A stretch of 64,000 nucleotides of DNA from Elusimicrobiales bacterium (GTDB taxonomy: Bacteria; Elusimicrobiota; Elusimicrobia; Elusimicrobiales; UBA9959): NCBI GenBank assembly GCA_028713125.1, contig JAQTOU010000007.1, positions 62,001 to 126,000 on the forward strand, written 5' to 3'. The notes under the pieces were generated by a model. The model saw only the letters and a list, made by a program, of their open reading frames with translations, was not told the DNA's origin and did no database searches. Below, piece by piece: positions 7,524 through 38,882 of the stretch. A program made the translations under genes and the position numbers. The first letter of the stretch is position 1, and each line of letters opens with the position of its first letter.

Positions 7524-9050
7524 ATGAAACATATCTTCGCAAGAAAATCCCTTAAAAAACTTTTAGACGAGATGAAGGACGACAACCGCCTTAAAAGGGT
7601 GCTCGGACCTGTCACGCTGACCTCTCTCGGCGTAGGCGCGATAATCGGCGCCGGCATTTTCGTAGCTACGGGCGCGGCGGCGAAGGGCGTCGCGGGCCCT
7701 GCCCTGATGGTCTCCTACGCGCTGGCCGGCATCACCTGCATCTTCGCGGCGCTGTGCTACGCTGAATTCGCCTCGATGGCGCCGGTGGCCGGCTCGGCTT
7801 ACACCTACGCCTACACCACCATGGGCGAGCTGTTCGCCTGGATAATCGGCTGGGACCTCGTCCTCGAATACGCCGTAGGTTCCGCGACGGTAGCCAACGG
7901 CTGGTCCGGCTATTTCCAGAGCGTCATGGCCAAGTTCGGCCTGGCCCTTCCGGAGTACCTTCAGAAAGCGCATTTCGCCTACGACAACGGCCATTTCGTG
8001 GTCACCAATTCCTGGGTAAACCTGCCGGCTATCTGCGTCGTGATCTGCGTCAGCCTTATCCTGATAAAGGGCATCAGCGAAAGCGCCAAATTCAACGCCG
8101 CGATGGTATTTCTCAAGCTGGCGGCCGTGCTCTTTGTCATCTGCGTCGGGGCTTTCTACATCCACCCCGCGAACTATACTCCGTTCGCTCCTTTCGGCTG
8201 GACCGGGATAGGCTTTTTCGGCAAACACATGTTCGGCCAGATGAACGCCGGCGGCGACCCGATCGGGATGATAGCGGGCTCGGCGATAATCTTCTTTGCC
8301 TACATCGGCTTCGACTCGGTCTCCACTCACGCCGAGGAGGCGATCAATCCCAAAAGGGACATCCCGATAGGAATAATAGCTTCCCTCGTCATCTGCACCG
8401 TGCTCTATATCGCCGTAGTCGGAGTCCTGACCGGCATGGTCCCGTTCGCCCAGCTCAGCAAGGACGCGGCGGTCGCCGACGCCTTCAAGCAGGCCGGCCT
8501 CCCCTGGGCCGAGTTCATCATAGCGGCGGCCGGCGTAGCCGGCATCACCTCGGTGCTCCTCGTCATGATGCTCAGCGGCCCCCGCGTCTTCCTGGCGATG
8601 GCGCGCGACGGGCTGATCCCGGCCAAGTTCTTCGCGGACGTGCACCCGAAATTCCGCACCCCCTGGAAAAGCACCATGGCCATAGGGGTTTTTGTCTGCA
8701 TCCTGGCCGGCCTGCTGCCCATCGACGCCCTCCTGCACCTCACGAATATCGGCACGCTTTTCGCCTTCGTTATGGTCTGCGCCGCGGTTCTTATAATGAG
8801 GAAGATAGACCCGCACATAGAAAGGCCTTTCCGCTGCCCCTGGGTTCCGCTGATCCCTATGCTCGGGATCGCGACCTGCCTCCTTCTGATGACCTCCCTG
8901 CCCGCCGCGAACTGGTGGCGGCTTTTCGTCTGGCTCGCTCTCGGCCTGGTGATCTACTTCGCCTACAGCCGCAAGCACAGCTTCCTCGGCAGGGAACTCC
9001 GGGGGGAGAAAATTACCGACAGACCGGTGATACACGTCGAGGGGCATTAA
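7524..9050 (+). CDS. APC superfamily amino acid permease (cationic amino acid transporter-like)
   Basis: LGVGAIIGAGIFVATGAAAKGVAGPALMVSYALAG signature; ~12 TM pattern. Confidence 0.92.
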   Translation: MKHIFARKSLKKLLDEMKDDNRLKRVLGPVTLTSLGVGAIIGAGIFVATGAAAKGVAGPALMVSYALAGITCIFAALCYAEFASMAPVAGSAYTYAYTTMGELFAWIIGWDLVLEYAVGSATVANGWSGYFQSVMAKFGLALPEYLQKAHFAYDNGHFVVTNSWVNLPAICVVICVSLILIKGISESAKFNAAMVFLKLAAVLFVICVGAFYIHPANYTPFAPFGWTGIGFFGKHMFGQMNAGGDPIGMIAGSAIIFFAYIGFDSVSTHAEEAINPKRDIPIGIIASLVICTVLYIAVVGVLTGMVPFAQLSKDAAVADAFKQAGLPWAEFIIAAAGVAGITSVLLVMMLSGPRVFLAMARDGLIPAKFFADVHPKFRTPWKSTMAIGVFVCILAGLLPIDALLHLTNIGTLFAFVMVCAAVLIMRKIDPHIERPFRCPWVPLIPMLGIATCLLLMTSLPAANWWRLFVWLALGLVIYFAYSRKHSFLGRELRGEKITDRPVIHVEGH

Positions 9051-9061
9051 TAAGCGGACCC

Positions 9062-11650
9062 GTGACATTAAAAAAGATACGCGGCTCGGGCGGGAAGATA
9101 AATTCCGCCGGCTTGCTGTTCTGGAGCTCCGCGGCGCTGGCCGCGGGGCTTTCCGCTCTTCAGTTCAGCCGCTGCCCGGAAACCCTGGTTCAGAGCCTCG
9201 GCCCGTATTCAGACCGCGGGGAAATGATGCTGCACGCCGTGCGCGGGCTGGGAGTCGGCTACAGCATGCCGCTCATGAGCCTGCTGGCCGCGGCGCAGCA
9301 GCACCTGGGTTTTGACCCGGCCCTGCCCGCGCAGGTGGCGGGGCTGCTGGTCTGCCTGGCCTCCTACGCGATCGGGGCGCGCGGCGGCGGCCCGGCCCGC
9401 GGCATACTTTTCACCCTGGCGCCCCTGCTCGTGAACCTGCACCTCAAAACACAGCAGCTGGAGCAGGTCATCTACTCGCTCGCCCTGCTCAGCTTCCTGA
9501 ACCTGGAGCTGCTCCGCCAGTCCTGCCGCGGCCTCCTCATTTCCGCGGCCGCCGGAGCTGCCGCCGGAGTAACCCTGCTGATCCGTTCGCCGCTTTTCCT
9601 TTTCCCGCCGCTGGCCGCCCTCTACAGGTTTTTAAGCGCTAAGGCCGGAAGCCGCAAACTGCTGCTCGGGTCCCTGCTCTTCCTTATCTGCGCCTACGCG
9701 CCGCTGGCGCCCTGGGCCCGCCTGAACCACAGTCTCTCCGGGAGGTTCAACCTTCTGGAGGAGGAGCGCCCGGCCGCCAATGTAATAACCGGCGCGATGG
9801 GCATGGTTTACACCATAGAGGGGGACGCCAGGGCCCTGGCCGGGCTTTCGCGCACGGAGAGCGTCTATCCATGGGCGATAAAGACGGTTCTGGCCAGCCC
9901 GGTAAAATACGTCTTCGCGGTGCTCAAGCGGGTATGGCAGGTCTTCCTGATGTTCCCGCTCCTTTTCCTCCTGGCCGGCTGCGGGCTTTTTTTAAGCCGC
10001 TCCGCGGAAACCCGGTTCCTGGCTTTTTTCTGCGGCTATTTTATTTCCATCCACTGCCTGCTTTCCGTCGAGGAGCGCTATTTCCAGCCACTCTGGTACG
10101 CACTGGCCCTTATCCCGGCCGCCGGCGCCTGGGAACTGCTTAAAAAAACCGGGCTGGCCGCTGAAAGGCCTTCCCGGGATTATTTGACCGCGCCTTTATT
10201 CCTGCTCACGGCGGCCCTGGCCGTATACGCGCTTGGCTTCGTATGGCGCTACCCGGCGGCCTCGAAACCCGGGCTTATAGCCCTGCTGCCTGAATTGAAG
10301 AGGCACCCGGCCGAGCCCTGGCTTTTAATGAAAAAAGGGGAGACGCTTCTTTCCTTCGACCTTACCGAGGAAGGGCTGGACGCTTTTTCACAGGCCTGCG
10401 CCGAGAGCGGCGGCACACGGCCGTGCTATATAACCGCAGTCCTCAGAGCCAATGAGCCGCCCGCTCCGCCAAAAGAGGCGGCCGGAGACTGGGACCTTCT
10501 TTTGGTCAAGATGCTGCGCGAGCTTGAGCTGGACCGTGACGCCGCGGCGGCGGAAACTTTCAAAGCCGCCCATGCGCTCTGGCTGGAGAGAAGCAATATG
10601 ATAAAGGGCGGTTCGCCGGATCCGTCCGGGCCCGACCTGCGGCGCATTATCGAAACCAACAAAAGCTTCTGGGACGGTAATATTTATTCTGCCCTTTCAT
10701 ATTTCCCTCCGGAAGCCCGCGCGCGCATCATAAAGCGCCTGGCCGGGATAACCGGCCTTACCCCGGCGCTGAAAACCCTCGGGGCCGCCGCTGTGCGCTC
10801 GGCCGCCGGAGAAGAGGACACGCAGGGGTATGACGCCGCGCTGGCCTACGCCCGGGAACTAGTGAAAACCCCGTATTTCTCAAAGCCGGAAGCCGGCGCG
10901 CTGCCGCCGCGGCTCGACGCGCTGCTTTCCGCCCTGGCCGCGGCCGGAAAAAACGGAGCGGAGGCCGAGCTTCTCCTCAGGGCCGGACCTTCCGCCGGGA
11001 ACCTCGTCGAGCTGTACCTTAATTCCTCCGACATGGACAGGCTGGCCCGGACAGCCCTCGGGATCTCCCGCAGAAGCCCCGGGAGCTGCCTCTACCCGCT
11101 GCTTAGGTACCTGGCCCTGAAAGGAAACCGGGCGGAGGAAGCCAAAGCCGCTTCGGCGCTTGCGCGGGCCTTCGACAATTCCCCGCTTTTCATGCTTGCG
11201 GCGGCGGAGGCGCTCGCGGCCTCGGGAGACGGGCGGGAAAAAGCGGCGGCCCTGGCGGCCTTCGCCGGGAAGTCGCCGCTTCTGACAGGTCCGGGCCGGG
11301 AGAAACTGGCGCTTCTTTACCAGGACCTGGGCCTTTACAAAGAAGCGATGGCTGAAACCCGCGCTTTGCTCGGCCGGGACCCGCGCAATCCCGTGCTCAG
11401 GAACAGCCTGGGTGTCCTCCTGCTTTTCCTCGGCCGCGAGAAAGAAGCCGAAGCCGCCTTCAAGCAGGCCCTGGCGGAGGACCGGGCGGCATATTCTCCG
11501 GCGCTAAGCCTCGCGGCGATCTACTCGCGCAGGGGGAATCCGTCGGAAAGCGCCTCATTTTACAGAAAAGCCCTTGAAAGCCCCGGGCTCCCCGCCGCGG
11601 AAAAGATCCGCGTACGGGAAGAACTTAAAAAGCTGGGACAGGCCCCCTGA
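9062..11650 (+). CDS. Polytopic GT-C-like membrane protein with C-terminal TPR-like repeats; probable GTG start at 9062
   Basis: The listed ORF starts at 8915 inside the permease gene; in-frame GTG at 9062 follows the permease stop. N-terminal half hydrophobic; C-terminal half helical repeats (LGRDPRNPVLRNSLGVLLLFLGREKEAEAAFKQAL). Confidence 0.75.
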   Translation: MTLKKIRGSGGKINSAGLLFWSSAALAAGLSALQFSRCPETLVQSLGPYSDRGEMMLHAVRGLGVGYSMPLMSLLAAAQQHLGFDPALPAQVAGLLVCLASYAIGARGGGPARGILFTLAPLLVNLHLKTQQLEQVIYSLALLSFLNLELLRQSCRGLLISAAAGAAAGVTLLIRSPLFLFPPLAALYRFLSAKAGSRKLLLGSLLFLICAYAPLAPWARLNHSLSGRFNLLEEERPAANVITGAMGMVYTIEGDARALAGLSRTESVYPWAIKTVLASPVKYVFAVLKRVWQVFLMFPLLFLLAGCGLFLSRSAETRFLAFFCGYFISIHCLLSVEERYFQPLWYALALIPAAGAWELLKKTGLAAERPSRDYLTAPLFLLTAALAVYALGFVWRYPAASKPGLIALLPELKRHPAEPWLLMKKGETLLSFDLTEEGLDAFSQACAESGGTRPCYITAVLRANEPPAPPKEAAGDWDLLLVKMLRELELDRDAAAAETFKAAHALWLERSNMIKGGSPDPSGPDLRRIIETNKSFWDGNIYSALSYFPPEARARIIKRLAGITGLTPALKTLGAAAVRSAAGEEDTQGYDAALAYARELVKTPYFSKPEAGALPPRLDALLSALAAAGKNGAEAELLLRAGPSAGNLVELYLNSSDMDRLARTALGISRRSPGSCLYPLLRYLALKGNRAEEAKAASALARAFDNSPLFMLAAAEALAASGDGREKAAALAAFAGKSPLLTGPGREKLALLYQDLGLYKEAMAETRALLGRDPRNPVLRNSLGVLLLFLGREKEAEAAFKQALAEDRAAYSPALSLAAIYSRRGNPSESASFYRKALESPGLPAAEKIRVREELKKLGQAP

Positions 11651-27257: not shown

Positions 27258-28490
27258 ATGAACAAACTGGCCGCGGGCTTCCTGATTTTAGCGCTGAGCC
27301 CCGCCGTAATGGCGGAGGAGGCCGCGCGCCTTAATCTCAAGAGCTACCTGGCCGAAGTGCGCACCGGCAACCCTGAAATAGCCGCCGCGACAGCATTGTC
27401 GAAAGTTTACTCCGCCAAGGTCAGCCAGTCCTGGCTGCCGATGGACCCTACCCTGGAGTTCGAGCGGATGTACGCTGCCGGCGCCCTCGGCGGCGGCGCG
27501 GCGGAGCGCAATATAATGATCCGGCAGGAATTCCGGAACCCCTGGAAAATGCGCCTCCAGAGAAAGGCCGCGGACGCGGAGAGCGGCTATTTCGGGGCGC
27601 AGAAGAACGACAGGGTCAACCGCACTCTGGCCGAGGCAAGAGCCGCCTACTACGAATACGCCCTGGCCTGGCAGTATGAACGAATTTACGCTGAAAATAT
27701 GGAGCTGGCCAAGAAACTGTCCAAGATAGCGGAAACCCGCTACTCCATAAGCCAGGGCTCGCAAAGCGACGCTATAAAAGCCCAGGTGGAGCTTTCGAAA
27801 GCGATGAACATGCTCATCACGGCGCAGCAGGAGAAGGAAACGGCCGGGGCCCGCGTCAACAACCTGCGCGGAAAGGATCCCGAGGAGCCGCTTGCCGAAC
27901 CGGAAGCCTTCGACGCTTCCGCGGCGCCCGCGGATTATAAAGCTCTGGCGGCGGCGGTTACGGCGAAGAACCCGGGCCTGCAGGCGATGGCCGCCCGCCG
28001 GAGAGCTTCTGAAAATAAATTAGCGCTGGCCCGGGCCGAATACGCGCCGGATTTCATGCTGAGCTGGCGCCGCCGCGGCTCCAAAGACGCGGCGATGGAC
28101 GGGACCTATGACGTCTCGCTCGGGCTCACCTTGCCGCTCTGGTTCAGCAAGCAGGGAGATATGAACAAGGAAGCCCGCGCCGAGCGGGACATGAGCGCCG
28201 CCGAATTCGAAGCCGCGAAGAACGCGGTGCTCCTGGAGCTGAAGGAAATCACCGTGAAGCTGGACTATTACCGCCGGCTGAAAGACCTCTACGGCGGCAC
28301 GGTGCTGTCGCAGGCGGAGCTTTCGCTGAAGGCTTCGGAGGCCGCCTACCAGTCCGGCGAATCCGATTTTATGGACCTCATGGACGCGAACCGCACTTTG
28401 ATCGAGACCAAGCGGGAATATTACGAATACGCCGCCGCCTACGCTTCCTGGCTGGCCCGCCTCGGCAGTTTGACAGGAGAAAGTTTATGA
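27258..28490 (+). CDS. TolC-family outer membrane efflux protein (CusC/CzcC-like)
   Basis: Signal peptide; OEP repeat pattern (LSKIAETRYSISQGSQSDAIKAQVELSKA...; SLKASEAAYQSGESDFMDLMDANRTLIETKREYYEY); first in the RND operon. Confidence 0.9.
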   Translation: MNKLAAGFLILALSPAVMAEEAARLNLKSYLAEVRTGNPEIAAATALSKVYSAKVSQSWLPMDPTLEFERMYAAGALGGGAAERNIMIRQEFRNPWKMRLQRKAADAESGYFGAQKNDRVNRTLAEARAAYYEYALAWQYERIYAENMELAKKLSKIAETRYSISQGSQSDAIKAQVELSKAMNMLITAQQEKETAGARVNNLRGKDPEEPLAEPEAFDASAAPADYKALAAAVTAKNPGLQAMAARRRASENKLALARAEYAPDFMLSWRRRGSKDAAMDGTYDVSLGLTLPLWFSKQGDMNKEARAERDMSAAEFEAAKNAVLLELKEITVKLDYYRRLKDLYGGTVLSQAELSLKASEAAYQSGESDFMDLMDANRTLIETKREYYEYAAAYASWLARLGSLTGESL

Positions 28491-29629
28491 ACAGGAAAGC
28501 ATTTATCTCCGGCATAATAGCCCTGGCCCTCCTTGGGGGGGGGCTAGCCTCCTACCGGCATTTCCACTCCGGGCACGGAGCGCAGGCCCAGGCCGGAATT
28601 TACTACTGCCCGATGCACCCGGATTACACTTCGGACAGGCCCGGGGACTGCCCAATCTGCGGGATGCACCTGGTCAAGAAAGAAAGAACGGCGCCGGCAG
28701 AGCGTAAAGTCAGGTTCTACAGGAACCCGATGAACCCCGCCGTCACCTCTAAAGTTCCGATGAAGGACGAGATGGGCATGGACTATCTCCCGGTTTATGA
28801 AGAGGAGGCCGGAAAGGCTTCGGTGGCCGGCCGCGGAACGGTCTCGCTTACTCCCGAAAAACAGAGGATGATAGGGCTTAAAACAGAAAAAGCGGCCTAC
28901 AGGACCCTTTCAAAAACTGTTCGCGCTTCAGGCAAGGTCGCCTACGACCCCGACCTGTACCGCGCTATCAGCGAATACAGGGAATCGCTGGCCTCTTATG
29001 AGCAGATCAAGGCGGGAACCTGGCAGGAGGCGATAGACCGCGCCAAAGCGGTGGTGGAGTCTTCGAAGATAAAACTGCGCCAGCTCGGCATAGGCGAGGA
29101 ACAGCTGGAATCAATGCGCAAGACCCCGGGGGAATACGACAATTTGCTTATCGCCGGTGAGAAAGTCTGGATCTACGCTCAGATCTACGAGTATGAATCG
29201 GCCTCGGTCAAGCCGGGCCAGCGCGCCGCTATAACTTCCCGCGCCTACCCCGGACGCGAGTTCACCGGCGTAGTCCGCTCCGTGGACCCGATCTTCTCCG
29301 AGGAGACGCGCACGCTGCGCGCGCGCATCGAGACCGACAATCCGGGAGGCGAATTGCGCTCCGAGATGTATGTGGAAGCCGTAATAAAGGCCGAGCTCGG
29401 GACGATGCTGGCCGTGCCCGTCTCCGCCGTGCTCAATACCGGCGAGAATGAAATAGCCTTTGTCATGAAGGACGAGGGGACTTTCGAACCGCGCGAGGTC
29501 AGGACGGGCCGCCGCAACGACGATTACGCCGAGATAGTCTCCGGACTGCGGGCCGGAGAGAAAGTGGTGACATCGGCTAATTTCATGATAGATTCCGAAT
29601 CCAGGATGAAAGCGGCGCTAGGAAATTAA
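28487..29629 (+). CDS. RND efflux periplasmic adaptor (CusB/CzcB-like) with N-terminal heavy-metal-binding domain
   Basis: YYCPMHPDYTSDRPGDCPICGMHLVKK HMBD motif; HlyD-like adaptor. Confidence 0.93.
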   Translation: MNRKAFISGIIALALLGGGLASYRHFHSGHGAQAQAGIYYCPMHPDYTSDRPGDCPICGMHLVKKERTAPAERKVRFYRNPMNPAVTSKVPMKDEMGMDYLPVYEEEAGKASVAGRGTVSLTPEKQRMIGLKTEKAAYRTLSKTVRASGKVAYDPDLYRAISEYRESLASYEQIKAGTWQEAIDRAKAVVESSKIKLRQLGIGEEQLESMRKTPGEYDNLLIAGEKVWIYAQIYEYESASVKPGQRAAITSRAYPGREFTGVVRSVDPIFSEETRTLRARIETDNPGGELRSEMYVEAVIKAELGTMLAVPVSAVLNTGENEIAFVMKDEGTFEPREVRTGRRNDDYAEIVSGLRAGEKVVTSANFMIDSESRMKAALGN

Positions 29630-29674
29630 GAAATAGAATGTAGGGTCGGAGTCGAATATTTTTTTACGGCCGTT

Positions 29675-32600
29675 ATGATCAAAAATATCATCGCTTTCTC
29701 CGCTAGAAACAGGGCACTGGTCCTGATCTTCGCGCTCGCCGCCTGCGTCGGCGGATTTTACGCCGTAAAGAACATTAACCTGGACGCCATCCCCGATCTT
29801 TCTGACACCCAGGTGATAGTCTATTCGAAGTGGGACCGCTCGCCTGACATAGTGGAAGACCAGGTGACCTATCCGGTTATAACCTCGCTGCTTGGCCTGC
29901 CCAAAGTGAAGACCATACGCGGCTTCTCCGACTTCGGCTTTTCCTACGTCTATGTCATCTTCGAGGACGGAACCGATATTTACTGGGCCCGCGCGCGCGT
30001 GCTGGAATACCTGAGCAAGATACTCCCGCAGCTGCCGGACGGCGTCAAGACCGAGCTGGGGCCGGACGCCACCGGCGTGGGCTGGATCTACCAGTACGCC
30101 CTGGTGGACAGGTCCGGCCGCCATGACCTGTCGCAGCTGCGCTCCTTCCAGGACTGGAACCTGCGCTACCAGCTGCAGTCGGTACCCGGCGTGGCTGAAG
30201 TGGCGGCTATCGGCGGCTTCCAGAAGCAGTACCAGGTGAACCTGAACCCTAATTCCCTGGCCGCCTACAATATCTCCATCGACAAAGTTCTTAAAGCCGT
30301 CCGCGACGGCAACGAAGAAGCCGGCGCGCGCCTGATAGAATACTCCGGCGCCGAATATATGATCCGCGGCAAGGGCTACGCGAAGTCCGCTAAGGATATA
30401 GAGGATATCGTAGTCGCGGGCGGCCGCGGCACGCCGGTTCTTTTAAAAAGCCTTGGTACCGTCACCTCGGGGCCGGAACTGCGGCGCGGCGTCTCCGACC
30501 TGGACGGCGAGGGGGATACCGTCGGCGGCATAGTGGTCATGCGCCACGGCGAGAACGCGCTTAAAGTCATCGAGCGCGTCAAAGAGCGGATAGAGCAGGC
30601 CAAAGCCTCCCTCCCGGAGGGGATGGAGATACTCACGGTCTACGACCGCTCGGACCTGATAAAAAAAGCCATCGCCACCCTTAAGCGCCAGCTCACCGAG
30701 GAAATGCTGATAGTGAGCCTGGTCATACTCGTCTTCCTCTGGCATATCCCGTCGGCAATTATCCCGATCGTCACCATACCGATCTCGGTGCTGCTCGCCT
30801 TTATCCCGATGTACTTCCTGGGCATCTCCTCCAATATCATGTCCCTCTCGGGCATAGCCATCTCTATCGGCGTGCTGGTCGACGGGGCGATAGTGGAGGT
30901 GGAGAACGCCTATAAAAAGCTGGAGCACTGGCAGAGCGGTGGGCGCAAAGGCGATTTCCACGCGGTGCGCCTGGAGGCCCTCCAGGAAGTCGGCCCGGCG
31001 GTTTTCTTCTCTTTGCTCGTCATCGCCGTGGCTTTCATGCCTATCTTCACGCTCGTAGACCAGGAGGGCCGCCTCTTCAAGCCGCTGGCCTATACCAAGA
31101 ACCTCACCATGTTCGTGGCCGCGCTCCTCGCCATCACGCTGGATCCCGCCCTGCGGATGATGTTCACCCGCATGGATTATTCGCAGTTCAAACCGGCCTG
31201 GCTGTCGAACATCTTTAACGCCGTCACCGTAGGGAAATACTATCCCGAGGAAAAGCATCCTATCTCGCGCCGGCTCTTTAAAATTTACGAGCCGGTCTGC
31301 CGCTGGACGCTGGAGCATCCGAAGAAAGTTATCAGCGCCGCGCTTTTCCTTATACTGACGACCATCCCGGTGTATTTGAAGACCGGCTCCGAGTTCATGC
31401 CGCCGCTGAACGAGGGAACCATACTTTATATGCCCACCACGCTGCCGGGCATCTCGGTCACCGAAGCGCAGCGCCTGCTGCAGGAACAGGACCGCATCCT
31501 CAAGTCCATCCCCGAGGTAGAGCGCGTTTTCGGCAAGGCCGGCCGCGCCGAAACCTCCACCGACCCCGCGCCTTTCTCCATGATGGAGACCGTGGCCGTG
31601 CTGAAGCCGCAGGACCAATGGAGGAAGAAAGACCGCTGGTATTCCTCCTGGCTCCCGGATTTCGCGCAGGCGCCGCTGCGGCATATCTGGCATGACCGTC
31701 TGAGCTGGGACGAACTGATCACCGATATCGATTCGAAAATGCAGTTCCCCGGCGTCTCGAACGCCTGGACCATGCCGATAAAGGCGCGCATCGACATGCT
31801 CACCACCGGCGTGCGCACGCCGGTAGGCATCAAGATCTTCGGCACGGACCTGAAAAAAATAGAGGAGACGGGGATAGAGGTAGAAAAACTGGTGCGGCAG
31901 GTGAAGGGGACCAGAAGCGTTTACGCCGAGCGCACGGCCGGCGGCTATTTCCTGGACTTCACGCTGAAGCGCGAAGCCCTGGCCCGCTACGGCCTCACCG
32001 TGAAGGAAGCGCAGATGGCCCTTATGACCGCTATCGGCGGCCAGAACCTGACCACCACGGTGGAAGGCCGCGAGCGCTACTCGGTGAACGTGCGCTACGC
32101 CCGCGACTTCCGGGACAATGTGGACAAGCTCGGCCGCGTCCTGGTCACCGCCGAGAGCGGCGTGAACGTCCCGCTCGCCCAGATCGCCGACATAGAGTTC
32201 CGCCAGGGCCCGGCGATGATCCGCGACGAGAACGGAATGCTCTCCGGCTATGTCTACGTGGATATCGAAGGCGTCGACGTCGGGACCTATGTCAGCAGCG
32301 CAAAGAAGCTGGTGGGGGAGAAACTCAAACTTCCCGCAGGCTACTCCCTGCAGTGGAGCGGCCAGTACGAGAATATGCTGCGGGTGCGCGAGCGCCTTAA
32401 AATTGTCCTGCCGCTGACCCTCTTCCTCATCTTCCTGCTGATCTACATGAACACCAAGTCGGCGGTCAAGACCTCGATCGTACTGCTGGCCGTGCCGTTC
32501 TCTCTGATAGGCGCGGTGTGGTTCGTCTACCTGCTCGGCTATAACATGTCTATCGCGGTCTGGGTGGGCATGATAGCCCTGATGGGCCTGGACGCGGAGA

Positions 32601-32917
32601 CGGGCGTTTTCATGCTGCTCTACCTGGACCTGGCCTACGACGATATGAAGAAGGCCGGCCGGATGAACTCCGCCGCGGACCTTGAAGAAGCCGTAATACA
32701 CGGCGCCGTAAAACGCGTGCGCCCGAAGATGATGACAGTAGCCGCGGCCTTCATGGGCCTGGTCCCCATAATGTGGGCCCTCAGCACCGGCTCCGACGTG
32801 ATGAAGCGCGTAGCCGCGCCGATGATAGGCGGCCTGTTCACCAGTTTCGCGCTGGAGCTGCTGATCTACCCGGTGGTCTTCTTCCTCTGGAAAAAGAAGG
32901 AGAACGCTTTTAACTGA
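29675..32917 (+). CDS. CusA/CzcA-family heavy metal RND efflux pump
   Basis: LDAIPDLSDTQVIVYSKWDRSPDIVEDQVTYPVITSLLGLPKVKTIRG signature; ~1080 aa. Confidence 0.96.
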   Translation: MIKNIIAFSARNRALVLIFALAACVGGFYAVKNINLDAIPDLSDTQVIVYSKWDRSPDIVEDQVTYPVITSLLGLPKVKTIRGFSDFGFSYVYVIFEDGTDIYWARARVLEYLSKILPQLPDGVKTELGPDATGVGWIYQYALVDRSGRHDLSQLRSFQDWNLRYQLQSVPGVAEVAAIGGFQKQYQVNLNPNSLAAYNISIDKVLKAVRDGNEEAGARLIEYSGAEYMIRGKGYAKSAKDIEDIVVAGGRGTPVLLKSLGTVTSGPELRRGVSDLDGEGDTVGGIVVMRHGENALKVIERVKERIEQAKASLPEGMEILTVYDRSDLIKKAIATLKRQLTEEMLIVSLVILVFLWHIPSAIIPIVTIPISVLLAFIPMYFLGISSNIMSLSGIAISIGVLVDGAIVEVENAYKKLEHWQSGGRKGDFHAVRLEALQEVGPAVFFSLLVIAVAFMPIFTLVDQEGRLFKPLAYTKNLTMFVAALLAITLDPALRMMFTRMDYSQFKPAWLSNIFNAVTVGKYYPEEKHPISRRLFKIYEPVCRWTLEHPKKVISAALFLILTTIPVYLKTGSEFMPPLNEGTILYMPTTLPGISVTEAQRLLQEQDRILKSIPEVERVFGKAGRAETSTDPAPFSMMETVAVLKPQDQWRKKDRWYSSWLPDFAQAPLRHIWHDRLSWDELITDIDSKMQFPGVSNAWTMPIKARIDMLTTGVRTPVGIKIFGTDLKKIEETGIEVEKLVRQVKGTRSVYAERTAGGYFLDFTLKREALARYGLTVKEAQMALMTAIGGQNLTTTVEGRERYSVNVRYARDFRDNVDKLGRVLVTAESGVNVPLAQIADIEFRQGPAMIRDENGMLSGYVYVDIEGVDVGTYVSSAKKLVGEKLKLPAGYSLQWSGQYENMLRVRERLKIVLPLTLFLIFLLIYMNTKSAVKTSIVLLAVPFSLIGAVWFVYLLGYNMSIAVWVGMIALMGLDAETGVFMLLYLDLAYDDMKKAGRMNSAADLEEAVIHGAVKRVRPKMMTVAAAFMGLVPIMWALSTGSDVMKRVAAPMIGGLFTSFALELLIYPVVFFLWKKKENAFN

Positions 32918-32935: not shown

Positions 32936-33115
32936 ATGGAAGAAACTAAAAAAGACTGCCGCGCGAAGAAACACCTTTGCGACCTGATGGCGGATAAAGC
33001 CGCCTTTGAAGCCGTGAAAGAGGCGGCAAAGAACGCTCGGTTCATCTGTAAAGCCTGCGGCCGGACCGCCGGAAAAGCGGAGAGCCTGTGCGATCCGCTA
33101 AGCCTGGACGCCTAA
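32936..33115 (+). CDS. 59-aa hypothetical protein with Cys pairs (below the ORF-track length cut-off)
   Basis: ATG 32936 to TAA 33113-33115: MEETKKDCRAKKHLCDLMADKAAFEAVKEAAKNARFICKACGRTAGKAESLCDPLSLDA; FICKACGR resembles half a zinc ribbon. Confidence 0.65.
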   Translation: MEETKKDCRAKKHLCDLMADKAAFEAVKEAAKNARFICKACGRTAGKAESLCDPLSLDA

Positions 33116-33176
33116 TATCAATACGCGGTGTACGGGATTTAAGGCGGGACAAATCGAGCGGTCAATGGAGGAAATT

Positions 33177-33623
33177 ATGAATAAGAAACTAACAATACTG
33201 TGCGGATTCGCCCTGGTATTGTCATGTTCCGCGGCTTTCGCCGCCGAAGGCGCCAAGCCGGAGAAAGCGGAGAACAAGGGCCAGGAGCAGAAGAAAGAAG
33301 CTAAAACCGCCGCTAAAGCGAAGGCTCCGAAAGCGGTCCTGCGCAAAATAGCGAAGGAAGAGATCGGCAAAGAGGCGGTCTGCCCTGTGACCGGTGAGAA
33401 ATTCAAAGTAACAGAAGAGACAATATCGGCTTCCTACAAGGGCAAAGTGTATTACTTCTGCTGCCCCGGCTGCGACAAAGGGTTCATCGCGAGCCCGGAG
33501 AAGTACCTGAACAAAAAGAAGGCTGAGCAGGCTAAGATCTACGTATGCCCCATGGGCGACTACCAGGGCGACAAGCCGGGCAAATGCCCCAAGTGCGGGA
33601 TGAACCTGTTAGAGAAGAAGTAA
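33177..33623 (+). CDS. Secreted YHS-like + heavy-metal-binding-domain protein
   Basis: Signal peptide; CPVTGEKFKVTEETISASYKGKVYYFCCPGCDKGFIASPEKYL (YHS-like); YVCPMGDYQGDKPGKCPKCGMNLLEKK (HMBD). Confidence 0.88.
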   Translation: MNKKLTILCGFALVLSCSAAFAAEGAKPEKAENKGQEQKKEAKTAAKAKAPKAVLRKIAKEEIGKEAVCPVTGEKFKVTEETISASYKGKVYYFCCPGCDKGFIASPEKYLNKKKAEQAKIYVCPMGDYQGDKPGKCPKCGMNLLEKK

Positions 33624-33685
33624 ATAGAAATTTCCGGGCCGGCTTGTACAGGCCCGGGAGAAGTAAAAAGTCACGGAGGTTACGC

Positions 33686-33772
33686 ATGCTGTTCGAAGAA
33701 CACAATGAAGTTGCTGTTGTGATAGTGAGCGAGCTCCACTGCGAGAAGCCTAAGTGCGATGAGCAGCCCTAA
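33686..33772 (+). CDS. Candidate RiPP precursor peptide (28 aa)
   Basis: RBS ggaggttacgcATG; MLFEEHNEVAVVIVSELHCEKPKCDEQP*; 96 nt upstream of a radical SAM/SPASM gene. Confidence 0.6.
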   Translation: MLFEEHNEVAVVIVSELHCEKPKCDEQP

Positions 33773-33792
33773 GCGCTGCTGAAGTAAAAGGA

Positions 33793-33842
33793 GGCAGCCT
33801 CCGCGCAAGTCCTGGCAAGAGCAGGGGCCCGCGGAGGCTGCC
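33793..33842. repeat. 13-bp perfect inverted repeat between candidate precursor and radical SAM gene
   Basis: GGCAGCCTCCGCG (33793-33805) / CGCGGAGGCTGCC (33830-33842), 24-nt spacer. Confidence 0.85.
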
Positions 33843-33868
33843 CTCCCATTACTTTTTCAATTTGAACT

Positions 33869-35083
33869 ATGCAAATTAAAGATTGCGTTTTAAAGCGCTC
33901 CCAGGACGGGATCTGGCTGTATCATACGGCCAGCGGCTACAAAGTAAAGATGAACCAGGAGGCGCTGGACGTCCTCGAGGCCATGGCCGCGCGCCTGGGC
34001 GCCGCCGAAATGACGGAAAAGGAGAAGCTGATCTACGACAAGTTAGCGGCCAAAGGCATCGCCGGCGAAGACACCGGCCGCGAAGAAGACCGCCGGATCT
34101 TTCTAAGGGAGAAGAGCAGACTGTCCTCGGTAGACCTGGAGTTCTCCGGCCGCTGCAACCTTAGCTGCGCGCACTGCTTCGCCGCGCTCTCACAAAAAGA
34201 TATGAGCCGGGAAACCCTTGAGAAGGTATTCGCGGGGATAGACGCCCTTGAACCGGTAAGCCTGACGATCAACGGCGGGGAACCTTTGCTGAACCCGCTG
34301 CTCCCGGAGGCGCTGCGGCAGGCGCGGGCGCGGCGGCTGCGCGTCACAGTGATGTCAAACGCTACGCTGGCCACCGAAGAAACCGCCGGGCTCCTGAAAG
34401 ACAACGCCGTGGCAAAAGTACTGGTCAGCCTGGATTTCTTCGAAGAAACGCACGACGCCATCCGCGGAAGCGGCGCCTTTAAAAGGGCCGTCCGCGGGAT
34501 AAAGTTTTTTATCGCCAGGAAACTGCCGGTCTTCATCTCTGCCGTGGTGCAGGAAAGCACGGCGGGACGCCTGGAGGAATTTAAAAACTTCTGCCTGGGC
34601 GAACTCGGGGCTTCCGGAATTAAGTTCTCCGCTGTCATGCCCATCGGCAGTGCCAAGGATTCGCCAAAGCTGGGGCTGTCCGCTGCGAAAACGAAGGAAC
34701 TCTACAACGATGGGCTGATACCGGCTCCCGGGGACGGCGACGGCGTTATCGCCAGGCTTGCCGAAGGACGCAAATTATATTGCAAGGCCGGTGTGAACCA
34801 GTGCTTCATCTCTGCGGACGGCCAGGTTTACGCCTGCCATTATTTCCAGAACATCGGAGAAAGCATGGGGAGCCTGGCCGACAGATCTTTGGAAACCATA
34901 TATAGGGAATATCAGGACGGCCGGGCCGTACCAGTGGACCTGGACTGGAACAAGCTGGAAAAGTGCAAAGCCTGCGTCCATTTCGCTAAATGTATGGGCG
35001 GCTGCCGCGCCAGGGCGAAAATACTCACCCGCAGCTGGCACGATCCTGACCCGTTTTCCTGCGGCATCTACGGCGTGGAGTAA
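33869..35083 (+). CDS. Radical SAM/SPASM protein with N-terminal PqqD-like (RRE-like) region; candidate peptide maturase
   Basis: CNLSCAHC (CxxxCxxC); C-terminal Cys-rich SPASM pattern (CKAGVNQCFISADGQVYACHYF...CKACVHFAKCMGGC...FSC); N-terminal GIWLYHTASGYKVKMNQEALDVLEAM. Confidence 0.85.
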   Translation: MQIKDCVLKRSQDGIWLYHTASGYKVKMNQEALDVLEAMAARLGAAEMTEKEKLIYDKLAAKGIAGEDTGREEDRRIFLREKSRLSSVDLEFSGRCNLSCAHCFAALSQKDMSRETLEKVFAGIDALEPVSLTINGGEPLLNPLLPEALRQARARRLRVTVMSNATLATEETAGLLKDNAVAKVLVSLDFFEETHDAIRGSGAFKRAVRGIKFFIARKLPVFISAVVQESTAGRLEEFKNFCLGELGASGIKFSAVMPIGSAKDSPKLGLSAAKTKELYNDGLIPAPGDGDGVIARLAEGRKLYCKAGVNQCFISADGQVYACHYFQNIGESMGSLADRSLETIYREYQDGRAVPVDLDWNKLEKCKACVHFAKCMGGCRARAKILTRSWHDPDPFSCGIYGVE

Positions 35084-35224: not shown

Positions 35225-36616
35225 ATGATCTTAAAAACAGTGGAAAATATGCAGACTGTCGACACTGTGCTGGACCTTATAGGCAATACCCCGCTGCTGA
35301 AGGTAAAACACCTGGACACCGGGAAATGCGAACTTTTCCTCAAGCTTGAGTGCCAGAACCCCGGCGGCTCGATAAAAGACCGCATCGCTCTCTCCATGAT
35401 AGCCGCCGCCGAGAAGGAAGGCAAAATTAAAAAAGGCGGAACGCTGGTGGAAGCCACAGCCGGCAATACCGGGCTGGGGCTGGCCCTGGTAGCCGCCCAG
35501 AAAGGCTACAAACTCATCCTCGTCATCCCTGACAAGATGAGCCAGGAAAAGATCTCCCATCTCCGGGCCTTGGGCGCGCAGATAATAAATACCCGCTCCG
35601 ACGTGGAGAAAGGCCACCCGGAATACTACCAGGACATGGCCGAAAGGATAGCCAAAGAAACTCCTAACGCTTACTTTATAAACCAGTTCGCCAACCCGGC
35701 CAATCCGGCGGCCCACGAGGAGAGCACCGCTCCCGAAATCTGGGAACAGATGGAGCACCGCGTGGACGCCGTGGTCTGCGGCGTAGGCTCCGGCGGCACG
35801 CTGACCGGTTTCGGCCGCTTTTTCTCGCGCGTTTCGCCTGGAACCGAAATGGTTCTCGCCGATCCGGCCGGCTCGGTGCTGGCAGACTATGTGAAGACCG
35901 GCAAGCTCGGAAAAGCGGGCTCCTGGTACGTAGAAGGCATAGGCGAAGATTTCATACCCTCTGTCGCCGACATGGCCCTGGTGAAGAAGGCTTACACAAT
36001 AACCGACGCCGAGAGCTTCACGGCCGTGCGCGAACTGCTCAAGAAAGAAGGCGTCCTGGCCGGTTCCTCTACGGGAACCCTCCTGGCAGCTGCGCTTAAA
36101 TACTGCCGCGAGAGCAAGACCGCCAAGCGGGTGGTCACCGTCGTCGGAGACAGCGGCAATAAATATCTTTCGAAAATGTTCAACGACTACTGGATGGCCG
36201 ACCAGGGCTTCATAAAGAGAACCGAGTTCGGCGACCTGCGCGACCTGGTCGGGCGCCCCTGCTCGGCCGGCTCGGTGGTCTCCGTAAAACCCGGTGACGC
36301 CCTGGTAACCGCCTTCCTCCGGATGCGGATGTACGAATACTCTCAGCTCCCGGTGATGGAAGACGGCCGCGTGGTAGGGCTGCTGGACGAGTCGGACATC
36401 CTCCTGGCCGTTCACAAGGATGTCTCCAACTACCGCAAACCCGTAAAAGAGCATATGACCCACAATTTGGTCACGGTACAGCCTTCAACCTCCCTAGAGG
36501 AGATAACCACTATCCTGAACAAGGACCTGGTGGGGCTGCTCAACTGCGACGGGAAGTTCTACGGCCTTATAACCCGCGTGGACCTGCTTAACCACCTGCG
36601 GCGCTCGCTGGCGTAA
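35225..36616 (+). CDS. cbs: PLP-dependent cystathionine beta-synthase-like enzyme with C-terminal CBS domain pair
   Basis: LIGNTPLLKVKHLDTGKCELFLKLECQNPGGSIKDRIALSMI; C-terminal CBS motifs. Confidence 0.9.
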   Translation: MILKTVENMQTVDTVLDLIGNTPLLKVKHLDTGKCELFLKLECQNPGGSIKDRIALSMIAAAEKEGKIKKGGTLVEATAGNTGLGLALVAAQKGYKLILVIPDKMSQEKISHLRALGAQIINTRSDVEKGHPEYYQDMAERIAKETPNAYFINQFANPANPAAHEESTAPEIWEQMEHRVDAVVCGVGSGGTLTGFGRFFSRVSPGTEMVLADPAGSVLADYVKTGKLGKAGSWYVEGIGEDFIPSVADMALVKKAYTITDAESFTAVRELLKKEGVLAGSSTGTLLAAALKYCRESKTAKRVVTVVGDSGNKYLSKMFNDYWMADQGFIKRTEFGDLRDLVGRPCSAGSVVSVKPGDALVTAFLRMRMYEYSQLPVMEDGRVVGLLDESDILLAVHKDVSNYRKPVKEHMTHNLVTVQPSTSLEEITTILNKDLVGLLNCDGKFYGLITRVDLLNHLRRSLA

Positions 36617-36640: not shown

Positions 36641-37783
36641 ATGAAATTCGAAACAGCGCTGATGCACGCGGGGCAGGAAGCCGATAAGCAGACAGGGTCG
36701 GTCAATGTACCGATCTACCAGACCTCCACCTACAAACAGGACGCTATCGGCAAGGACCGGGGCTGGGAATATTCCCGCACCGGCAACCCCACGCGCAAGG
36801 CCCTTGAAGACTGCATAGCCGCGCTCGAAGGGGCGAAGTACGGCCTGGCTTTCGCTTCCGGCCTGGCCGCCGAGGCGACCGCCTGCCTGAGCCTGCTCAA
36901 GAAGGGCGACCATGTGGTGTCCGGCGACGACGTTTACGGCGGGACCTACCGTCTCTTCGAGAGAGTATTCAAGAAGTGGGGCCTGGAAGTCACCTATGCG
37001 GACTCCAAGAATCCGGCTGCTTTCAAAAAAGCGATGCGCCGCAATACCCGGCTTATCTGGGCGGAGACCCCCACCAACCCGCTGCTGAACATAACCGATA
37101 TAGCGGCGCTGGCCGAGATAGCTAAAAAGCACAAGGCCATCCTCGCCGTGGACAATACTTTCGCCACGCCCTACTTCCAGCGCCCGATAGAACTGGGCGC
37201 CGACATCGTGGTGCACAGCTCCACAAAGTACCTGGGCGGCCACAGCGACGTGGTAGGCGGCCTGATGGCCGTGGCGGACAAAGGGATCTACGAGGAAGTG
37301 AAATTCCACCAGAACGCGGCCGGCGGTATCCCCGGGCCCTGGGATTCCTGGCTTACGCTGCGCGGGATGAAGACCCTCGCGGTGCGCATGATGGCCCACG
37401 AGGCCAATGCCTTCGAGATAGCTGATTTCCTTACAGCCCACCCGGCGGTAGCCAAAGTCTATTATCCCGGGCTCACTACGCATCCCGCGCACGCCCTGGC
37501 CGACAGCCAGATGTACGGCTTCGGCGGCATGGTAAGCTTCGAACTGAAGGGGGGAAGGCCCGCCGCTGACGCCTTCTTTAAAAAGCTGAAGATCTTCATG
37601 CTTGCCGAAAGCCTCGGCGGGGTGGAGTCACTGGCCTGCTATCCGGCGACGATGACGCACGCCGCCATCCCCGAGAAAGACCGCCTGAAGCGCGGGATAA
37701 CCGCCGGGCTGGTCCGCCTTTCGGCCGGGATCGAGAATTCAGGGGACCTGATAAACGATCTGGAGCGCGCCCTTAAACGCTAG
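36641..37783 (+). CDS. Cystathionine gamma-synthase / gamma-lyase family PLP enzyme
   Basis: TALMHAGQEADKQTGSVNVPIYQTSTY; YSRTGNPTRKALE; VHSSTKYLGGHSDVVGG; RBS ggaga before 36641. Confidence 0.93.
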   Translation: MKFETALMHAGQEADKQTGSVNVPIYQTSTYKQDAIGKDRGWEYSRTGNPTRKALEDCIAALEGAKYGLAFASGLAAEATACLSLLKKGDHVVSGDDVYGGTYRLFERVFKKWGLEVTYADSKNPAAFKKAMRRNTRLIWAETPTNPLLNITDIAALAEIAKKHKAILAVDNTFATPYFQRPIELGADIVVHSSTKYLGGHSDVVGGLMAVADKGIYEEVKFHQNAAGGIPGPWDSWLTLRGMKTLAVRMMAHEANAFEIADFLTAHPAVAKVYYPGLTTHPAHALADSQMYGFGGMVSFELKGGRPAADAFFKKLKIFMLAESLGGVESLACYPATMTHAAIPEKDRLKRGITAGLVRLSAGIENSGDLINDLERALKR

Positions 37784-37784
37784 T

Positions 37785-38882
37785 ATGTCCCTGACAAAAG
37801 AAGAGCTTATCCGGTATTCGAGGCAGCTGGTCATTCCCGGCATGGGACCGGAGGGCCAGCAGAAGCTCAAGGCCGCCAAAATAGCCGTGATCGGCGCCGG
37901 CGGCCTCGGGTCCCTGGTTCTCGCCTACCTCGCCGGCGCCGGCGTCGGCGAGATCGGCGTCTTCGACTTCGGCCCGGTCGAGCTTTCAAACCTTCACCGC
38001 CAGCTTATTTACGGCACCGGAGATATCGGGAAGCTAAAGACAGAGCTGGCAAAGAAGCGCCTGCTTGAGATAAATCCGGAAATAAAAGTTAACGCGAACG
38101 AAGGCATCCTTACCGGCGACAATATCGGCGCCGCTCTGGCCGGCTATGACTATATCGCGGACTGCACTGACAATTTCCTGACCCGCGCCGCTATCAATAG
38201 AGCCTGCCTACAGTTGAAAAAGACTTACGTTCACGGCGCAGTCTTCCAGTTCGAGGGTCAATTGGCCGTCTTCGAGCCGCATAGCGGGCCCTGCCTGGGC
38301 TGCCTGGCCCCCGGAGCCGAGTCCCAGGAAAACCAGGCCTGCGCCGAAGCCGGCGTAATGGGCCCGGCCGCCGGGGCCATAGCCTCAATGCAGGCCCTCG
38401 AGGTCCTTAAACTTATACTCGGCTTTGAAACCCTGAAGGGAAAATTCGCGATGCTTGACTTCCAGCTGGCGGATTTCAACGTCGTTGAGCTGAAAAAAAG
38501 CCCGGACTGCCCTGTCTGCGGCGCGAAAGCCGGCGCTGACACCAAATTCATCGAAGCTCTCTCCGTCGACCTTATCACTCCGGAAGCGCTGAAAGCAAGG
38601 TTGGATTCCGGCAAGCCTCCGCGCCTGCTCGACCTGCGTTATCCCTGGGAGCATGACCTTTGCCATATAGCCGGAGACGCCTGGATCGACTTCGACGAGC
38701 TTCTTAAGAACGGCGCGGGCCTCGGCGCGGGCGAAGAGATCGTCCTTTACTGCAAAGGCCAGAGCAAATCGGCCGCGGCCTTCCGCGCCCTCCGCGCGAA
38801 AGGCTTTAAGAAAGTTTCAATCCTGAAAGGCGGCCTTGACGCCTGGGCTGAAAAGATGGAGAAAGGGATGCTCCGCTATTAG
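37785..38882 (+). CDS. E1-like (MoeB/ThiF/MOCS3-type) adenylyltransferase with C-terminal rhodanese domain
   Basis: YSRQLVIPGMGPEGQQKLKAAKIAVIGAGGLGS; DNFLTRAAIN; Cys pairs CLGC/CPVC; rhodanese VLYCKGQSKSAAAF. Confidence 0.93.
   Translation: MSLTKEELIRYSRQLVIPGMGPEGQQKLKAAKIAVIGAGGLGSLVLAYLAGAGVGEIGVFDFGPVELSNLHRQLIYGTGDIGKLKTELAKKRLLEINPEIKVNANEGILTGDNIGAALAGYDYIADCTDNFLTRAAINRACLQLKKTYVHGAVFQFEGQLAVFEPHSGPCLGCLAPGAESQENQACAEAGVMGPAAGAIASMQALEVLKLILGFETLKGKFAMLDFQLADFNVVELKKSPDCPVCGAKAGADTKFIEALSVDLITPEALKARLDSGKPPRLLDLRYPWEHDLCHIAGDAWIDFDELLKNGAGLGAGEEIVLYCKGQSKSAAAFRALRAKGFKKVSILKGGLDAWAEKMEKGMLRY

Follow-up and report, generated by a model that had tools for sequence, protein, structure and literature searches.

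Radical SAM chemistry in peptides is known mainly for antibiotics and redox cofactors. The maturases SkfB, CteB, and SuiB, of the sactipeptide, ranthipeptide, and streptide systems, each combine an N-terminal domain of about 80 residues, a radical SAM barrel, and a Cys-rich auxiliary-cluster domain, and a short precursor gene adjoins the enzyme. Mycofactocin likewise has a short precursor, MftA, with a C-terminal Val-Tyr, beside a SPASM enzyme, MftC. Sactipeptides and ranthipeptides are distinguished by Cys thioethers that attach to an alpha and a non-alpha carbon, respectively. A different chemistry underlies the bufferins, copper-binding RiPPs made by multinuclear iron (MNIO) enzymes with DUF2063 partners and exported through Sec signals (PMC12452194).

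We analyzed a 64,000-nt stretch of an Elusimicrobiales genome (the window, whose features described below all lie on the + strand) in which two genes share the precursor–maturase layout. A 28-aa peptide gene (33686..33772; MLFEEHNEVAVVIVSELHCEKPKCDEQP) is followed, after a 96-nt gap, by a gene (33869..35083) whose 404-aa product is a radical SAM/SPASM maturase that starts with an 80-residue domain. An earlier note had proposed the pair as a RiPP system; its coordinates, peptide sequence, ribosome site, inverted repeat, and motifs agree with the window sequence and Pfam, and its interpretation is supported overall, with the peptide presumably modified. On balance, we favor the view that the pair represents a new two-gene family of radical SAM RiPPs with soft-metal ligands as its invariant core residues and a probable role in copper-type metal or thiol stress. 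The adjoining enzyme probably modifies the peptide, and the pair is, as far as found, confined to Elusimicrobiota.

A conserved peptide gene beside a radical SAM gene

Orthologs of the enzyme were present in 13 of 342 Elusimicrobiota genomes, at ∼39%–84% identity. A related peptide gene lay within 0.1–4 kb of all 13 complete orthologs examined, contrary to the absence of a peptide near homologous enzymes that the earlier note had named as fatal to its proposal. The peptide directly precedes the enzyme at 11 of the 13 loci; at L062 it lies 1.3 kb upstream with XdhC genes in between, and at L061 it is on the other strand, 4 kb away. Eleven of these peptides have an MLFEEH-type start, and two are divergent (L062, MYFVEQNDLVVEFPEHAHCEGCGN; L063, MIFEECDDRTVEFTDKAHCEPCEK). 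Two loci (L054 and L057) have a second peptide gene beyond the far side of the enzyme gene and facing it, L059 has a peptide without an adjoining enzyme, and in one genome (G004) the enzyme is truncated and there is no peptide. The peptide family thus defined has 18 copies (alignment A2, the two divergent copies, and L032). One genome, G019, carries three enzyme copies of different subtypes (L055, L061, and L032), each with a peptide and one cut by a contig end, which suggests either that copies were acquired by transfer inside the phylum or that the assembly is mixed.

A degenerate DNA pattern of the peptide start had 14 matches in 10 of the 342 genomes, and the reversed pattern had none. Nine of these 10 genomes bear the enzyme (Fisher p = 4e-14, ignoring relatedness of genomes); in the tenth, G017, the contig stops 92 nt past the peptide, and an enzyme gene beyond that point may simply have escaped assembly. 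The relatives, namely, the 13 enzyme-bearing genomes and G017, are all metagenome-assembled and mutually related, and significance values therefore overstate independence. The peptide had a pN/pS of 0.31 in frame across the 18 codons that run from residue 2 to the conserved Cys; the two shifted frames gave 1.31 and 1.16. The peptide frame is under purifying selection, with protein-level conservation strongest at the N terminus, far from the cysteines. Given the association with 13 of 13 orthologs, the pattern matches against the reversed control, and the coding-type selection, the window peptide is a real gene and not a chance ORF. Distances between peptides tracked those between enzymes (Mantel r = 0.65, p = 1e-4, 13 loci), also within the genus (r = 0.55, p = 0.007). 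The pair therefore has the marks of a precursor and its maturase: a conserved short gene beside the maturase gene and co-varying with it.

No enzyme relatives were found outside Elusimicrobiota. A scan of wider bacteria with two degenerate patterns, which had limited recall, returned Elusimicrobiota only, plus a disregarded Ruminococcus match of 21% identity; some of the matching records were the same contigs as the genus relatives already analyzed. The viral contigs and plasmids searched held no relatives, the peptide matched no curated family or precursor model (best E of 0.05, at chance level), and we found no paper on this peptide or enzyme family in the open-access literature.

Every copy of the peptide has a His-Cys pair and, 2, 3, 4, or 6 residues on, another Cys, so that the C-x4-C spacing first thought to be fixed gives way to one of 2–6 residues between the cysteines. 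Other than His, Cys, and Cys, no core residue is constant across copies, and consequently no fixed crosslink acceptor is readable. Four copies (L056, two in L057, and L061) have a tandem core, for example, MLFEEHNDV-AVAIVSKPHCADMGCDGDS-AVAVVSKPHCADMGCDGDN (hyphens are not part of the sequence), and occur where the enzyme falls in a single supported clade (L056, L057, and L061). The repeat unit starts at about AVAVVS, which places the leader at about MLFEEHNEV and, in the window peptide, the core at AVVIVSELHCEKPKCDEQP; EVAVVIV, which had been taken for the leader strand, does not fit this division. The precursor begins MLFEEH and has no signal sequence.

The metal and cysteine gene neighborhood

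Upstream of the pair, the window encodes a heavy-metal RND efflux system of CusC, CusB, and CusA type (27258..32917; 27258-28490, 28487-29629, and 29675-32917, respectively). CusA scores 1081 bits against TIGR00914 (CusA/CzcA), above the cut-off, and the best model for the adaptor is CusB, below the cut-off. A gene for a YHS and HMBD heavy-metal-binding protein with a signal-like N terminus follows (33165..33623; Pfam HMBD, 8e-11; YHS, 5e-9). Between CusA and this gene is a 59-aa Cys-containing ORF (32936-33115; RFICKACGRTAGKAESLC), possibly a small zinc-ribbon protein of the island; similar ORFs of 66 and 71 aa adjoin the YHS/HMBD gene in L082 and L085. Downstream of the pair are a cystathionine beta-synthase-like (CBS) enzyme with PLP and CBS domains (35225..36616; TIGR01137, 431 bits with a cut-off of 510), a PLP enzyme of the cystathionine gamma-lyase/synthase (CGL) family (36641..37783; Pfam Cys_Met_Meta_PP, 1e-155; CGL/CGS models), and a MoeB/ThiF adenylyltransferase–rhodanese fusion (37785..38882; Pfam ThiF, 8e-74; Rhodanese, 5e-17). 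No leader protease or exporter was recognized in the loci.

The YHS/HMBD gene is directly upstream of the peptide at nine loci and is its commonest immediate neighbor. Most genus copies have Cus genes nearby, as do L062 and L063, the latter also with an SO_0444-family Cu/Zn efflux gene (over the cut-off) and a CsoR-family repressor; L064 and L065 had no Cus genes within the stretch read. Within the taxonomic family, the association of CusA with the enzyme was modest (p = 0.02), and the enzyme went together with CGL presence (7/9 versus 10/50, p = 0.001). Roughly 10 of 14 enzyme loci have a CBS, CysK, or CGL gene within about 10 kb, and the two deep clades of the enzyme tree both include loci with CBS/CGL or CysK/CGL neighbors. 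At L066, from the window's own family, CysK-CGL adjoins an enzyme that groups with those of another family, which suggests transfer.

Four loci without the pair (L082, L083, L085, and L086) have much the same Cus-CBS-CGL-MoeB-YHS/HMBD operon. The island thus does not require the pair, which appears to be an optional addition to it, and a strict tie of the pair to the Cus operon is weakened accordingly. The pair-less island of L085 has a heavy-metal P-type ATPase (7639-9954), over the copper-ATPase subfamily cut-off, between CusA and a cysteine synthase. XdhC-family genes adjoin the peptide or enzyme at L059 (10042-10563, by eye only), L062 (4852-5646, between peptide and enzyme), and L067 (114-914), loci that represent two families; an XdhC-type protein could be an accessory factor.

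These neighbors bear on a second reading, in which the peptide is a RiPP of this enzyme and its product serves sulfur or molybdenum-cofactor chemistry instead of metal resistance, through sulfide or persulfide handling or by acting for a Mo/W enzyme as a chaperone or peptide-derived cofactor. Such a role would suit the CBS/CGL neighbors, which span both deep enzyme clades as Cus genes do not, the MoeB–rhodanese fusion in the window, the adjoining XdhC-family genes, and the MoaA/MoaC/MoeA-like genes seen by eye in L066. However, XdhC and Mo-cofactor genes are missing near most copies, no Mo enzyme is consistently linked, and the place next to the peptide is most often taken by the YHS/HMBD protein; we therefore consider this reading rather unlikely, and retain a soft-metal or thiol-stress product as the preferred one.

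The enzyme and the signals around the peptide gene

By its motifs, the enzyme belongs to the radical SAM/SPASM superfamily (Pfam Radical_SAM, 3e-16; SPASM, 3e-7). It has the radical SAM motif C96-x3-C100-x2-C103 and the full seven-Cys SPASM layout (C305-x12-G318-x4-C323...C366-x2-C369-x5-C375-x3-C379...C398); the cluster cysteines are invariant in the 13 enzyme sequences, and both Pfam domains were found in 13 of 13. An extra Cys at position 312, present in most of the enzymes, is absent from the clade of L064, L065, and L066, suggesting that a site on Aux I may be open in these enzymes; a site of this kind in CteB takes a substrate cysteine (PMC6231123).

The window enzyme fell below the cut-off of all 25 listed curated models, including GeoRSP, PqqE, ACGX, and other systems of radical SAM RiPPs. 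The best NCBIfam model was mycofactocin MftC (TIGR03962; 111.6 bits with a cut-off of 265); the PapB model gave 82 bits with a cut-off of 340, and the curated StsB model was likewise below its cut-off. Membership among the anaerobic sulfatase maturases, which had been raised as grounds for dismissing the RiPP proposal, can be set aside, with 63.6 bits against a cut-off of 349 (TIGR03942). An AlphaFold2 model of the enzyme (pLDDT 75, pTM 0.78, with the C-terminal part of the SPASM region poorly modeled) had SkfB, SuiB, and CteB as its top Foldseek matches and nearest solved structures; these peptide maturases were also among the top profile matches.

Whether the N-terminal domain is an RRE, defined as a bbb-aaa winged helix (PMC12710340), bears on a PqqD-like N terminus having been proposed for the enzyme. 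PqqD profiles do not bear this out: None of the 13 members matched PF05402, and hhalign to a local PqqD set did no better than shuffles. The predicted fold (AlphaFold2, pLDDT 75) lends it weak support, with three strands and a pair of helices in a bbb-aa layout and a third helix that is short, and the nearest folds by Foldseek are the RREs of SuiB, TbiB1, the MccB peptide clamp, and SkfB, none of them significant (best E of 0.18). The RRE-like character that the model suggests is thus unproven. The window's own genome (G000) has ∼19 further radical SAM matches (E ≤ 0.001) as well as a single discrete PqqD-like gene (C35:43631-43831), and may thus encode further RiPP-like systems.

The enzyme might instead act on another substrate, a cofactor or a larger protein, and leave the peptide as an unmodified metal binder. 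Even unmodified, the HC-x-C motif could plausibly serve as a metal site, and the enzyme scores against many SPASM families, heme and sulfatase types included, always far below the cut-off. We regard this as unlikely in view of the co-occurrence at 13 of 13 loci, the co-divergence, and an architecture like that of peptide maturases, all of which agree better with a modified precursor.

The peptide gene is preceded by a Shine-Dalgarno sequence, ggagg (33675..33679), 6 nt from its ATG, and a cggaggtaac-type site is kept in relatives; a comparable site is not obvious before the radical SAM gene in the window. A short hairpin, ccgggcc...ggcccgg (33634..33657), separates the YHS/HMBD gene from the peptide, and GC hairpins like it also stand upstream of the peptide in several to many genus copies. 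The gap between peptide and enzyme holds a terminator- or attenuator-like inverted repeat (33790..33846). Across 12 peptide copies, RNAalifold predicted 19 pairs in this hairpin, nine with compensatory changes. Orphan and convergent peptide genes are among the 12, which argues that the hairpin belongs to the peptide gene. Terminator-like matches in the region were not above the shuffled background in number. The hairpin, together with a ribosome site that is strong for the peptide and not obvious for the enzyme, fits an excess of peptide over enzyme.

A cysteine-responsive leader peptide, controlling the radical SAM and cysteine genes through the hairpin, would also present Cys and His codons in a short ORF, then a conserved hairpin and, as in the window, cysteine-synthesis genes, but we reject this very improbable reading. 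The peptide has only two Cys codons, and it is the protein sequence that is conserved, most strongly at the N terminus, far from the cysteines. Cores are duplicated in frame, and some copies are orphaned, converge on the enzyme gene (L054 and L057), or lie 4 kb off on the other strand (L061) or 1.3 kb upstream before XdhC genes (L062).

A proposed product and its described counterparts

For the soft-metal RiPP that we favor, we propose that the strong ribosome site and the hairpin before the enzyme gene would yield more peptide than enzyme, and that the N-terminal LFEEHNEV segment would dock as a strand on the putative RRE-like domain. The radical SAM cluster would then generate a 5'-deoxyadenosyl radical, oxidizing the core AVVS-xx-HC-x(2-6)-C, most likely to a Cys thioether or another Cys/His-centered crosslink. 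The product may work in parallel with the Cus efflux pump and the cysteine supply, either binding a soft metal of copper type or buffering thiol stress; this role is suggested by His, Cys, and Cys being the only invariant core residues and by the metal and cysteine gene neighbors.

The precursor/maturase family is apparently undescribed and comes from a little-studied, mostly uncultured phylum. Its simple two-gene architecture is well suited to co-expression, and its natural variation, with Cys spacings of 2–6 and tandem cores, offers a ready series for probing enzyme recognition. If the metal link holds, the products of radical SAM chemistry would extend to metal-handling peptides.

Compared with SkfB, CteB, and SuiB, whose general layout it shares, the enzyme is only 15%–20% identical, and its N-terminal domain is not significantly an RRE. 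The precursor is unrelated to theirs: Each unit has only two core Cys, and a single His-Cys pair is invariant. No antibiotic-type transporter or immunity genes were seen near the two genes. The system resembles mycofactocin in its short precursor beside a SPASM enzyme, but the MftC cut-off is far from reached, no other mft genes were recognized nearby, and the window precursor does not end in Val-Tyr. Action of a SPASM enzyme on Cys, as proposed here, recalls the PapB-type ranthipeptide maturases; unlike their substrates, the peptides of this family have no Asp/Glu that is kept at a constant distance from a Cys. With the bufferins it shares a possible role as a Cys-containing RiPP tied to copper-type stress, but it does not qualify as one, as the modifying partner is a radical SAM enzyme and the precursor has no signal peptide. 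We tentatively suggest, as one possibility, that a radical SAM enzyme here makes a metal-binding RiPP comparable to bufferins and methanobactins: A single maturase would convert the core, one unit or a tandem, into a soft-metal ligand that works together with efflux of Cus type and a cysteine supply dedicated to it.
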